64,000 nucleotides of DNA, from the NCBI RefSeq assembly GCF_000305935.1, contig NC_018870.1, positions 2,093,001 to 2,157,000 of the forward strand, given 5' to 3'. Shown here one piece after another: positions 1,421-28,085 of the stretch. Each line of letters starts with the position of its first letter. Positions within the stretch are counted from its first letter, which is position 1. Both the position numbers and the translations under genes were made by a program. The notes below the pieces were generated by a model, which was not told where the DNA came from, did no database searches, and saw nothing but the letters and a program-made list of their open reading frames with translations. This stretch comes from Thermacetogenium phaeum DSM 12270. Lineage in GTDB: Bacteria > Bacillota > DSM-12270 > Thermacetogeniales > Thermacetogeniaceae.

Positions 1421-3958
1421 CTACACAGGCCTCTCCCGGAGGGAAGGCCGGAACCGCTTTAAAAGGAGCGTATTTAACGTTACCGATACCGAACTCATGG
1501 CCATAAAAAAGGCTGCCAGTTCGGGGCTGACGATGAGCCCGGTGAAGGGATACAGGACTCCGGCGGCAATGGGAATCCCCAGGGCGTTGTACAGGAAAGC
1601 CCATACCAGGTTCTGCCTGATCTTCCCCATGGTCGCTCTGCCGATTTCGATAGCTCCCACCACATCGCGAAGGTCATCCCTGATCAGGATAATGTCCCCC
1701 GTCTCCTTTGCCACATCGGTTCCGGAGCCGATGGCAATCCCCACGTCCGCCTGGGCCAGGGCCGGAGCATCGTTGATCCCGTCACCCACCATGGCCACCT
1801 TGAGCCCTCTTTCCTGAAGCTTTTTAACTTCTTCGGCCTTGTCCTGGGGCAGCACCTCGGCCAGCACGGTCTTGATCCCAACCTGCCGGGCAATGGCCTC
1901 GGCCGTGCGGCGGTTATCTCCGGTAATCATGGCCACCTGAATGCCCATTTTCTGCAGGCGCTCTACCGCCACCTTTGTGCTTTCCTTGAGAGTGTCGGCC
2001 ACGGCGATCACACCGGCGGCCTTACCGTCAACGGCCAGCAACATAGCGGTCTTGCCTTCCTCTTCCAGTTCCTCCATCCGGGCTGCCAGGTCACCTATGT
2101 TGATGTTTCTCTGCTGCATCAAACGGCGGTTGCCCAAAAGGATCTCCCGCCCCCGGTACACGGCCCGCACGCCGTGGCCCGGAACGGCTTCAAAGTCCCG
2201 AACATCCTCGATCTCAAGGCCTTCGTCACGGGCTCCGCGGACAATGGCCTCCCCAAGGGGATGCTCGGACGGTTTTTCGGCCATGGCGGCCAACCTCAGA
2301 ACCTCTTGTTTATCGAACCCCTCCGCTGCAATAATATCGGTGACGGAAGGCTCCCCTTTGGTCAAGGTCCCCGTTTTATCAAAGACTATAGCATTCAGCT
2401 TGCTGCTCTCCTCAACCGCATCGGCGCCTTTAAAGAGGATCCCGTTTTCGGCGCCCTTGCCCGTCCCGGCCATGACCGCACTGGGAGTGGCCAACCCGAG
2501 AGCACATGGGCAGGAAATCACAAGGGTGGTTACCGACAACAGCAGGGAGAACCCGAAGACGCCCACCTGGGCCAGGCTAAAGGGCGAGAGGATGAAGCGG
2601 CTGCCGGGCAGGAAGAAAGCGTTATAGCCTATAAAGAACCAGAACAGGAAGACAAGGAGGGCCAGGACATGGACCCCGGCAATGAAATGACCTGCCACAA
2701 AATCGGCGAGCCTTTGAATGGGTGCCTTGGACGCCTGGGCATCCTCCACCAGCTTGATGATCTGGGCGAGTGTCGTCTCGCTCCCCACCCGGGTAGCCCT
2801 GAACTTGAAAGAGCCGGTCTTGTTGATGGTCGCTCCAATCACCTGGGCGCCAGGGCGTTTTTCCACAGGGATGCTTTCGCCGGTAATCATCGATTCATCC
2901 ACGGCCGAATAACCCTCGATCACTTCCCCGTCCACCGGGATGCTTTCGCCGGGACGAACCACTACAATGTCCCCCACCTCTACCTCATCGGCTGCAATCT
3001 CGATCTCCCGGCCGTCCCGGACAACCAATGCGGTTCTGGCCCGCAGGCTCATCAGCTTCCTGATGGCCTCGGAAGTCCGGCCGCGGGTAAGGGCCTCCAG
3101 GTAGCGCCCGAGCACGATAAAGGCTGTCAGCAGGGCGGCCGACTCAAAGAAGGTCGCGCCACGGCCGCCGAAACCCGCATTGGGCCACAGGGTATTGATT
3201 GTAGCTATCAGGTAAGCGGCGCCGATACCTGTGGCATAAAGGAGGTTCATGTCGGTGGTACCCCGCTTCAGACCGTTCCAGCTGTGCACGAAAAACTGCC
3301 AGCCGGGGATGAAGGCTACCGGTGTGGTCAGGGCCCAAAGCACATAGACGTTGCCCAGGAATTTTGGTACAAAGTACGGGAAAATCCACATATCCCGGAA
3401 CATGCCCACCATAACCAGAATCGCCAACGGCCAGGCGATCCACATATTGCGCCGCTGGTACCTGATCTCCCGTTCCCGGGCCTCTTTCTCCCGGTCGAGT
3501 GCCTCCTGACCCGTCAGCTTTTCCGAAGCCTCGTAACCAAGGGCATTGATCTCCTGCTTGATGCGGGATTTGTCAACGGCACCCGGGTAGAACCGGATCT
3601 TTGCCGACTCAGCCGGGAGGTTGACCACCACCGACGTTACTCCCGGCAGAGCTCTAAGAGTTCTTTCCACCCGGGCCACACAGGCAGCGCAGGTCATACC
3701 CCGAACGGTCAAGAGCACCTCTTCCTCCGGTACTTCGTAGCCGATCTCCTGGATGGCCTTGACCATTTGAGGCACGCTCACCCGCTCCGGAAGGTAATCC
3801 ACAGCAGCCTTCCCGGCTACCAGGTTCACCCGGGCTCCCTCCACTCCCGGGATGTTTTTCAGGGTCTTTTCCACCCTGGCGACACACGCCGCACAGGTCA
3901 TACCCCGTACGGGCAAAGTCACCCGGGCGGGCCCTGCTCTTTCCGCCCCGTTTTCCAT
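1421..3958 (-). CDS. copA: Copper-exporting P1B-type ATPase CopA
   Basis: Integral membrane Cu(I) exporter of 845 residues. Two tandem N-terminal heavy-metal domains each carry [12 protein letters not shown]. Then come the membrane helices, the actuator loop with TGES, the transport motif CPC (in [12 protein letters not shown]), the phosphorylation site DKTGTLT, the SEHPLGEA nucleotide-domain motif, and GDGINDAP, ending in the last helix pair. All catalytic motifs are intact. I place the start at MENGAER because GGGGGTGA lies 6 nt upstream of that ATG; a start seven codons earlier has no such site. It is first in an operon with a small membrane protein and csoR, behind a consensus-like promoter and a CsoR-like operator. 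Confidence 0.95.
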
Positions 3959-3995
3959 GACGTTCACCCCCGGTAACATTTGAGGTGCGCTTCTC

Positions 3996-4010
3996 TACCC
4001 GGTATGGGTA
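3996..4010. promoter_or_regulatory. CsoR-like operator in the copA leader
   Basis: Perfect inverted repeat TACCC-GGTAT-GGGTA, about 10 bp downstream of the expected copA transcription start and 38 bp upstream of the ATG. CsoR operators in Firmicutes are GC-tract inverted repeats of the ATACCC...GGGTAT kind, so this fits repression by the csoR product of the same operon. The binding assignment is inferred from sequence likeness and location. Confidence 0.65.
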
Positions 4011-4025
4011 TATTCATCTGTTTTC

Positions 4026-4054
4026 ATTATGCATCTATTAACCGCATATGTCAA
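4026..4054 (-). promoter_or_regulatory. Promoter of the copA operon
   Basis: Read on the minus strand: TTGACA (4049-4054), a 17-bp spacer, then CATAAT (4026-4031), a near-perfect sigma-A promoter. Transcription would start near 4019, just before the CsoR-like repeat at 3996-4010. Confidence 0.75.
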
Positions 4055-4103
4055 CCATTAGGCTTGTTATAAACGCACATGTGTGAAGTTTTTGTGAAGC
4101 CAG

Positions 4104-4133
4104 TTGATTATACCCTTAACGGGGTATTACAAT
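4104..4133 (+). promoter_or_regulatory. Divergent promoter with embedded CsoR-like operator
   Basis: TTGATT (4104-4109), an 18-bp spacer and TACAAT (4128-4133) form a plausible sigma-A promoter on the plus strand. Between the two hexamers lies TACCC-TTAAC-GGGGTA (4111-4126), the same kind of repeat as in the copA leader. A bound repressor would block polymerase. The decamer GGGGTATTAC at its right edge recurs in reverse orientation at 4255-4264, inside the short transcript that follows. Confidence 0.65.
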
Positions 4134-4164
4134 AAAATCGTCCAACCGGAAAGGAGAGATCGCA

Positions 4165-4221
4165 ATGCTGAGGAAAAGATATATGCTCAGACCTGTTGCT
4201 CACTGCAGAGATGGCCATTAG
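4165..4221 (+). CDS. Tiny ORF, 18 residues, in a CsoR-type unit
   Basis: MLRKRYMLRPVAHCRDGH, preceded by AAGGAGAG 6 nt before the ATG. The peptide is strongly basic and ends in a cluster of His-Cys-His-type potential metal ligands (AHCRDGH). It lies between a promoter with a CsoR-like operator and a strong terminator (4286-4335), so the whole transcript would be only about 200 nt. It could be a small copper-binding or signalling peptide, a leader peptide, or a by-chance frame in a small regulatory RNA. I know of no named family for it. The gene-like layout is what is directly visible; the metal role is inferred. Confidence 0.5.
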   Translation: MLRKRYMLRPVAHCRDGH

Positions 4222-4285
4222 CGTCGTCCAGATAAAGATTTTCTGCTTCTCAATGTAATACCCCCTATTCTTTGTGGCTGTTTGA

Positions 4286-4335
4286 AGCCCCGCACCAGGC
4301 CGGTTAAAGCCGGTTTGTTGTGGGGCTCATTTTTT
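4286..4335 (+). terminator. Rho-independent terminator of the tiny copper unit
   Basis: Outer stem AGCCCC (4286-4291) with GGGGCT (4322-4327), an inner stem of CCGG pairs around AAAG, then a T-run at 4330-4335. It closes the short plus-strand unit that starts near 4140. Confidence 0.8.
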
Positions 4336-4613: not shown

Positions 4614-4621
4614 GAGATTTA

Positions 4622-5032
4622 TGCTCGCCGCAGCTGGAACAATCCCCGGCGGCGGTAGCAGCAAAGTGCCCCTTTAAATTATTGGTGCCGGGTTATTTGC
4701 CGCACGGATTTACTTTACCCCAGGTTAAATATTATCCCGAAGGCAAAGGGTTCGCCAGGGTTGAGCTCTACTACACAGCAGGGGAGAAGTGGCTGCTCAT
4801 TGTTCAATGGAAGGCGGAGAACCAGGGCATCGGCTACTCTTTCGACACCGATGATACGGTGGTCAGCGATGTTGCCGTACGAGGCAATCCCGGAAAATTG
4901 TATTACAGGCAGAGCAACGGCGGCTACAGCCAGCTTACGTGGGCCGAGGGGGATCGCAATTACAGGATAGGAGGTGCAATCGGTCCCTCGGAAATTGAGC
5001 GTGTCGCCTCTTCCCTCCGCCAGCTGAACTAA
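4622..5032 (+). pseudogene. Truncated DUF4367-like C-terminal domain
   Basis: The open frame encodes a domain that begins around CPFKLLVPGYLPHGF and ends SEIERVASSLRQLN. It resembles the C-terminal domain of the anti-sigma factor at 28876-29949 (PVYLPAGFLLES ... PEELKKVADSLQ), of DUF4367 type, found on extracytoplasmic parts of membrane proteins. No usable start with a ribosome site lies in this frame: the ATG at 4621, which does follow GAGGAG, is in another frame and stops after 18 codons. Expected upstream parts (membrane anchor or signal peptide) are missing. I read it as the 3' remnant of a larger gene joined out of frame to the repeat's promoter and start codon. A TTG start at 4682 giving a small cytosolic protein is the alternative. 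Confidence 0.55.
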
Positions 5033-24240: not shown

Positions 24241-24945
24241 TCTTCTCACTTTAATTCGCGGATCCATTTCCGGGCGGCGTCAACTGTAAAGACTTTAACA
24301 CCAAAGGATCCTTTCCGGGGAACGCGGGCCGGATATAACTACCATAAGAAGCCTTTCCCCGGAACGCCTTTAAGGTATAATAATCTTTCGGCACCATACC
24401 CGCAATTTCCTTGTCACATAATACAAGTTTCTTTCTATCGAAATATCGATAAACACAAAGACTAAAACCGGATTCCCCTGGCCCCGCAAAGGCCTGTTGC
24501 CTAAGGAGCCGTAATTGTAGCTAAAATTCATACCACGCACGGGAGCAGAAACGAGACATACCTAAATTTCAATGTATAGCATATCTCTTGCGCCGCGGAC
24601 AGAAAAATGGTAACAAATCGGGGGACAGAGGCGATGGCCCAAAAGCGGGGAAAACGTGTGAGGAACTACGGGTACTTGTGATATAACAACAATAGAAAAG
24701 ACAAAACATCGCTCTGAATACCTCGGTAGTGTCGAACTCCGGGCATCCAGGACTGCCTTTTGCAGTGATACCCACATGGGGTATCACTGTCGCAATTAGT
24801 ATAAGACATATAGTTAAGTTTGTCTATTAAAATTATAAGGTTATATTCCAGATTTATCGCCTGTGGATTCTTGCCCTTAAAAAACATGCCGCCTGCGGCT
24901 ACAATGTCCCGTAACGGCTTGATAAACATAGATGGGAAATGCTAT
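24241..24945. other. Long intergenic stretch with one strong inverted repeat
   Basis: No gene is convincing. AGTGATACCC (24764-24773), a 5-nt loop, and GGGTATCACT (24779-24788) form a perfect 10-bp inverted repeat without a T-run, so it looks more like an operator or RNA hairpin than a terminator. Further on are imperfect repeats of CCTTTCCGGGGAACGC type (24309-24365). The cysK gene ends at the right edge, with no clear terminator. Confidence 0.45.
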
Positions 24946-27654: not shown

Positions 27655-27805
27655 TTTTCACGAACCTACCCTACCCTGAAAATATGTGTTCATCCTTACG
27701 CTTGCTCCCGGACTCCGGTTTAACTCGCCCTAAGACTCGTCGATAGATAAGCAGCCGACCGGCTCCTATGCGCCTTCCCTGGCGCAGAGTCGCCTATCTC
27801 GACAT

Positions 27806-28085
27806 CCTGTCTCGATTCGGCTGCCGTTTGCTGCTCCTTCGTCAAGGGCGAGTATCAACCTCCGTCAGGTCGCTGCGCCGTCAAGGATAAACCCTTTTTT
27901 CGTTCCTCTGTTGGTGCCGCCGCTGGCGGCATGGTGGTCTGTCATGAAAATAGATCGCATACCCTGCCGGTCTACCGCTCGACTCCCGATTCCAGGCCGG
28001 ACAGGACGACGGCTCGCTTCGGGACAGCTCTGGGATGCTGCGTAACAAGTTGCAAACTGCTTCTGCCAATCGCAGCGTTTGGCCT
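27806..28085. repeat. Dispersed repeat, copy 2 (two modules)
   Basis: The left module (27806-27943) matches copy 1 at 16751-16882. The right module (27943-28085), from CATGAAAATA to GCGTTTGGCCT, matches 54550-54693 nearly base for base apart from a variable stretch of about 15 bp near its left end. So copy 2 carries both modules, and its right end abuts the stop of the SIMPL gene. No protein reading is shared. Confidence 0.75.

Follow-up and report, generated by a model that had tools for sequence, protein, structure and literature searches.

The stretch analysed here, hereafter the window, comprises 64,000 nucleotides of the genome of Thermacetogenium phaeum DSM 12270 (contig NC_018870.1, positions 2,093,001 to 2,157,000). 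Opposite its copA gene lies a tiny open reading frame (ORF) of 18 codons, the subject of this work. A preliminary description of this locus had reported a TACCC-N5-GGGTA type repeat in each of the two divergent promoters and, on the plus strand, a unit composed of promoter, ribosome site, 18-codon ORF and strong terminator. Both repeats are found as exact copies, and every element of the plus-strand unit lies where it had been placed (Table 1). The pattern TACCC-N5/6-GGGTA occurs three times in the 64 kb window against 0.12 expected, and none of 100 shuffles reaches three. The third exact palindrome, TACCCACATGGGGTA, is located at 24769-24783, downstream of a cysK-like gene, with no obvious target.

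In the closest relative (G002), whose locus is 85% identical to that of the window, identity amounts to 93% in the ORF, 96% in the terminator and 94% in the 5' untranslated region, and the two peptides are 89% identical. The operator-promoter region is 73% identical, with both half-sites, TACCC and GGGTA, kept and the centre changed. Two features expected of a CsoR regulon member are present: a palindromic operator with a GC core overlaps the promoter, and a CsoR-family repressor with a Cys-His-Cys set (RYCID...DRHIKGC, as read from its sequence) is encoded nearby. The comparison firmly places the window ORF under a conserved operator of predicted CsoR type, of the kind also carried by copA, and in front of a terminator of its own.

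Table 1. Features of the micro-gene and of the copA operon opposite to it (positions within the window)
Feature	Position	Strand	Remarks
18-codon ORF, MLRKRYMLRPVAHCRDGH*	4165-4221	plus	ATG at 4165, TAG at 4219-4221; HCxxG[C/H] micro-gene family
Shine-Dalgarno site, AAGGAGAG	4151-4158	plus	from sequence
Sigma-70-like promoter	4104-4133	plus	TTGATT (4104-4109), 18 nt, TACAAT (4128-4133)
CsoR-type operator, TACCCTTAACGGGGTA	4111-4126	plus	exact, between -35 and -10; half-sites conserved in G002
Place of the homologues' 26-nt pseudoknot, GTCCAGATAAAGATTTTCTGCTTCTC	4226-4251	plus	degenerate; GUC...GAU kept, second helix lost
Intrinsic terminator	4285-4335	plus	-32.2 kcal/mol, z = -6.1; followed by U-tract CAUUUUUU
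CsoR-type operator, TACCCGGTATGGGTA	3996-4010	minus	exact, in the copA leader; pattern scan; identical in G002
copA promoter	4026-4054	minus	TTGACA-17-CATAAT, 11/12 matches
copA, P1B-type ATPase with two HMA domains	1421-3979	minus	PF00122, PF00702, PF00403
Small membrane protein	1166-1393	minus	3' of copA in several relatives; no Pfam match; recurrent cluster
CsoR-family repressor	833-1105	minus	PF02583, E = 7e-31

By its predicted product, the window ORF belongs to a previously undescribed and widespread family of stand-alone micro-genes. The family products, of about 16-25 aa, share the core KRxMLRxVAHCxEG[C/H] and end at, or shortly behind, HCxxG[C/H]; counted from the terminal Cys/His as position 0, Cys at -4 and Gly at -1 are invariant across 103 aligned ORFs. 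A peptide hidden Markov model (HMM) of 15 columns, whose true matches (E < 1e-3) are distinct from noise, recognizes the window ORF with E = 3.5e-8. The peptide search of 348 genomes of the same phylum yielded many further tiny ORFs, with several copies in some genomes (G128, for example), and HMM-positive genomes number 45 of 348 in this phylum, 37 of 297 in the phylum of locus L122, 29 of 198 in that of L086, and 44 of 145 in the phylum of an Omnitrophota genome. Across 195 distinct ORFs the mean entropy is 1.56 at the third codon position, against 0.69 and 0.68 at the first and second, and the conserved residues use all four Gly codons, both Cys codons and both His codons; a Shine-Dalgarno-like site precedes the ORF in 195 of 198 loci when a loose pattern is applied. 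This pattern of variation marks the micro-gene clearly as a coding unit under purifying selection. Absence of conservation of peptide or operator, which the preliminary description had named as evidence against itself, is not what is observed: the peptide is conserved, and the operator half-sites are kept in G002.

Four family members gave no match in Pfam or NCBIfam at E<=10, and string and topic searches of open-licence papers did not retrieve the peptide family. Peptide searches for a second copy in the window genome returned only noise. At L254:1485-1700 two micro-gene copies stand in tandem about 114 nt apart, each with its own structure. No family match was found in plasmids, and a plasmid-borne resistance cassette was rejected on this basis.

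Downstream of most family ORFs the motif GTCCYGGGCANGAC...AAACTGCCC is encountered, which is predicted to form an H-type pseudoknot of 26 nt, GUCCYGGGCANGAC-N3-AAACUGCCC. Helix 1 pairs GUC (positions 1-3) with GAC (12-14), helix 2 pairs GGGCA (6-10) with UGCCC (22-26), and AAA at 18-20 is invariant. With offsets of 4-14 allowed, 170 of 198 non-redundant loci accommodate the pseudoknot, 162 of them with a spacer of exactly 8 nt from the terminal Cys/His codon. The stop codon follows that codon mainly at a distance of 0, 2, 6 or 8 codons, and lies within or before the structure in 159 of 162 ORFs; ORFs lacking an earlier stop have TAA formed by motif position 17 in 53 of 56 cases, against T at this position in 72 of the other 106 (Fisher p = 6e-5). 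The start of the predicted pseudoknot, or of a GC-rich hairpin in its stead, clearly keeps a distance of 8 nt from the terminal Cys/His codon, regardless of the position of the stop.

Both helices covary, pairing and double changes standing above all 500 shuffles for 138 unfiltered sequences at fixed offset, a figure that kinship inflates, since related sequences are not independent and shuffle counts are not probabilities. Two-sided changes are present at L215 (GCC/GGC), L246 (GAC/GUC) and L219 (GAGC/GCUC), a simple hairpin replaces the knot at L240, L243-L245, L247, L248 and L250, and several Actinomycetota carry a GC-rich hairpin at its place. A motif scan of 84,980 species genomes gave at least 118 matches, against roughly 0.5 expected by a rough estimate, spanning Omnitrophota, Deltaproteobacteria, Zixibacteria, Actinomycetota, Bacillota and others. 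Among the matches listed, a tiny ORF stands directly upstream in 74 of 80 motif loci; for the six motif-only matches, the peptide was not found in their genomes. Spacing and structure recur in unrelated phyla, and for the loci found by the HMM the RNA findings are not circular, because those peptides were called without regard to RNA. Rfam 15 gave no overlapping match at the gathering threshold in the bacterial and phage loci, and none plausible on short stretches.

The window copy departs from this pattern, its pseudoknot place being degenerate when judged against the 170 canonical homologues. The stretch behind the stop codon folds no better than shuffles, both in the window (z = +0.47) and in G002 (z = +1.57), and the canonical motif was not found elsewhere in the window genome. 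The canonical pseudoknot has been lost in the window lineage, whereas peptide, operator and terminator remain conserved; it is therefore the peptide that this lineage has retained.

The same pseudoknot is found in phages. A 25-base pattern gives at least 120 matches in IMG/VR contigs (L317-L396 among them), without the peptide. In 35 of 61 measurable cases the knot lies 6-7 nt behind stop codons, which belong to many different ORFs, and the next ORF frequently begins about 20-30 nt past it. In isolated phages, related knots are situated between genes (OR602862.1 170434-170463, KP893289.1 21040-21066, AF195902.3 20871-20892), and in Staphylococcus, Lactobacillus and D6E phages the knot immediately precedes scaffold and capsid genes. 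Two of these, Staphylococcus phage B166 and Lactobacillus prophage Lj771, carry GAC/GUC in place of GUC/GAC. The predicted phage knots constitute a new pseudoknot RNA family, absent from Rfam and spread over many hosts. A viral origin of the peptide was rejected: one core pattern detected no peptide-plus-knot in the viral contigs, where the knot alone is common.

The genes adjacent to the micro-gene are enriched for P1B ATPases and for YHS, HMA, Metal_resist, Ars and Rrf2 genes. Of the 189 genes that directly adjoin the first 104 loci, 18 code for P1B ATPases, with HMA, YHS, ArsP, ArsR, RND, Rrf2, Usp and MsrB also occurring repeatedly. The peptide-only searches supplied another 111 adjacent genes, which include Rrf2 (11), Metal_resist (5) and YHS (5), with PDZ proteins and ArsB recurring. 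The micro-gene is divergent from copA in the window, G002 and G128, lies upstream of copA with its own terminator in Moorella and Desulfofundulus, and is found downstream, within the copA operon, at L039, L047 and L117. Because its place relative to copA varies, it is best regarded as its own cistron and not as the leader of one downstream gene. A role as copA leader peptide was rejected on the same ground, and also because a terminator often follows (36 of 104 loci against 24 of 312 controls). CsoR-type boxes, with one mismatch allowed, occur upstream of the ORF in 14 of 198 loci against 27 of 990 background stretches; they precede it in the window, G002, Moorella (TACCCTATAAGGGTA, 44-46 nt upstream), G128 and a Candidatus Andersenbacteria metagenome-assembled genome (55 nt upstream). 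Several regulators have probably recruited the micro-gene cistron. The operator-ORF-terminator layout near copA, which the preliminary description proposed to look for in related genomes, recurs in G002. Its suggestion of a small component of copper defence is supported in so far as the conserved HCxxG[C/H] offers plausible ligands, but is too narrow for the family, whose neighbours also include ArsR/ArsP/ArsB, MerR, Rrf2, MsrB and HtrA; nor did it anticipate the pseudoknot at fixed distance.

Some further observations concern the surroundings of individual loci. In G002 (L002 2265-3456) the micro-gene is followed by an ECF-sigma-like gene and a DUF4367-type gene; in the window (4620-5032), which lacks the sigma gene and the N-terminal part of DUF4367 there, a truncated DUF4367 pseudogene remains near the micro-gene. 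At L042, L067 and L100 the micro-gene is located near selD-like and yedF/TusA-like genes, a possible selenium/sulfur link. L003:1637-1932 and the matching G069 locus (L037) contain a MerT-like ORF, possibly a selenoprotein MerT, beside a MerR-type regulator; in this ORF an in-frame TGA comes immediately after the first-helix Cys (FASIC-TGA-LGPVI). A TwoAYGGAY RNA (RF01731, 48.6 bits) is present in the window at 27710-27867 on the minus strand.

The best explanation of these findings, put forward tentatively and at slightly less than an even chance, is a metal-inducible micro-gene whose working state would be a ribosome that pauses while the terminal Cys/His codon occupies the P site. With this codon in the P site, ribosome geometry would bring the downstream structure to the mRNA entrance. 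Metal or thiol stress regulators, CsoR in the window, would switch the micro-gene on, and the ribosome would then halt at the terminal codon. The conserved residues from -14 to 0 would at that moment occupy the upper exit tunnel, with the aromatic residue at -12, R/P at -9/-8, His-Cys at -5/-4 and Gly at -1, and the RNA structure would rest at the mRNA entrance. The C-terminal HCxxG[C/H] could plausibly serve as a set of ligands for soft metals, with MLRKRYMLRPVAHCRDGH and MKRFMIPRVAHCSEGC as candidate peptides; through it, soft metals or thiol chemistry may change the pause, or bind the product, and the micro-gene would act throughout as its own cistron. A broader proposal, about which we are more doubtful, sees in the family a genetic element of a new class, a micro-gene that responds to metals or thiols, whose conserved nascent HCxxG-C/H and phage-shared pseudoknot jointly hold the ribosome at one codon, and which stands beside copper, arsenic and other stress operons in many phyla.

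The paused ribosome is favoured over a simply free metal-binding peptide because the geometry is constant. A released product of 16-25 aa might instead serve as a chaperone or buffer that binds Cu(I), As(III) or other soft metals via His-Cys-x-x-Gly-Cys/His; the pseudoknot would then do no more than protect the mRNA 3' end or slow the last steps. This would agree with His, Cys, Gly and Cys/His being the most conserved residues, with the metal genes and CsoR-type operators at the loci, and with a window copy that retains the peptide without the pseudoknot. We consider it unlikely, if worth serious attention, given that the distance of the structure is fixed to the terminal Cys/His codon and not to the stop codon, that chelation would need neither the conserved aromatic residue at -12 nor R/P at -9/-8, and that 0-8 unrelated residues trail the terminal Cys/His. 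The RNA itself could also be the product, the phage-shared pseudoknot blocking exonucleases or binding a protein and the ORF only bringing ribosomes to its edge. The viral contigs, in which the knot occurs without the peptide and behind stop codons, and the isolated phages, where it stands before scaffold and capsid genes or elsewhere, point in this direction; the strong amino-acid selection on the peptide, its presence at nearly all listed exact motif loci of bacteria, and a window family that drops the structure and keeps the peptide make this reading rather improbable.

The tiny size, the multiple copies in G128, the tandem copies at L254 and a radical-SAM-like neighbour at 3 of 105 loci (by sequence inspection) would suit the precursor of a ribosomally synthesized and post-translationally modified peptide with an unlinked maturase. 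No recurrent modifying enzyme was found among about 300 scanned neighbours, and the peptide is too short for a leader/core split, so this possibility is very slight. That the ORF is a chance frame beside copA with a terminator, or a decayed piece of a longer gene, might be suspected from its 18 codons and the truncated DUF4367 pseudogene close by, but is refuted by conservation, namely the HMM match, the homologues in many phyla and the synonymous variation, and retains practically no probability. A selenocysteine/SECIS system was rejected, since only 23 of 162 cases have UGA after the terminal codon, as was a -1/+1 frameshift cassette, there being no slippery site and codon usage at GGN TGY being free; both alternative frames of the motif contain stops in some members, as read from the sequences.

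Several observations weigh against the paused ribosome. The window copy itself is without the canonical pseudoknot, helix 1 has only 3 bp and by itself would be a weak block to a ribosome, and, by a motif scan of their surroundings, about 80% of family loci have no obvious adjacent metal gene. The statistical support is inflated by kinship, as noted above, and the pseudoknot must have a use of its own, because it is present in phages without the peptide. A gene of some 18 codons, which annotation would normally miss, is conserved over many phyla together with an RNA structure whose distance from one codon is fixed. Such a fixed geometry gives a precise and testable prediction, that of a programmed ribosome state connected with metal stress; the phage pseudoknot adds a new RNA family, and the micro-gene would supply a missing small member of CsoR regulons.

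Among known systems, the bacterial metallothioneins MymT and SmtA are metal-induced small Cys/His ligands, Cys-rich and at least about 50 aa long, whereas the micro-gene product is predicted to have 16-25 aa with two Cys (or Cys and His) and one His, these ligand residues being conserved. The arrest peptides TnaC and SecM share with the micro-gene the confinement of conserved residues to within about 14 of one P-site codon, and the aromatic residue at -12 recalls Trp12 of TnaC; the micro-gene differs in showing no sequence similarity to them, in its mRNA pseudoknot at constant distance and in not being the leader of one gene. Its geometry is compatible with an arrest peptide that would pause at a defined codon. 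The frameshift and readthrough pseudoknots of luteoviruses and murine leukemia virus resemble the micro-gene knot in being compact, H-type, with an A-rich loop and only a few nt 3' of the decoding site (PMC5009743); in the micro-gene there is no slippery site, all Gly and both Cys codons being used, and no frame is open through the knot in all members. The pseudoknot in the T4 gene 32 leader, an autoregulatory site of one gene, is likewise H-type and upstream of a gene (PMC3014915), whereas the present phage knots have another sequence and follow stop codons of many different phage genes.

In function, CutF of Rhodobacter capsulatus comes closest, a copper-sensing nascent exported protein with a Sec signal, which controls one downstream gene via a stem-loop over the ribosome site of that gene (PMC9973294). 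Common to both are a small ORF in copper operons, an RNA structure near the end and, presumably in the micro-gene, a Cu-binding motif and sensing through a translation pause. The micro-gene carries neither a Sec signal nor a regulated gene of the CutF kind, the gene downstream of it varying in kind and strand. It differs from CutF in its length of 16-25 aa, which leaves no room for a signal peptide, and in a pseudoknot held at fixed spacing.
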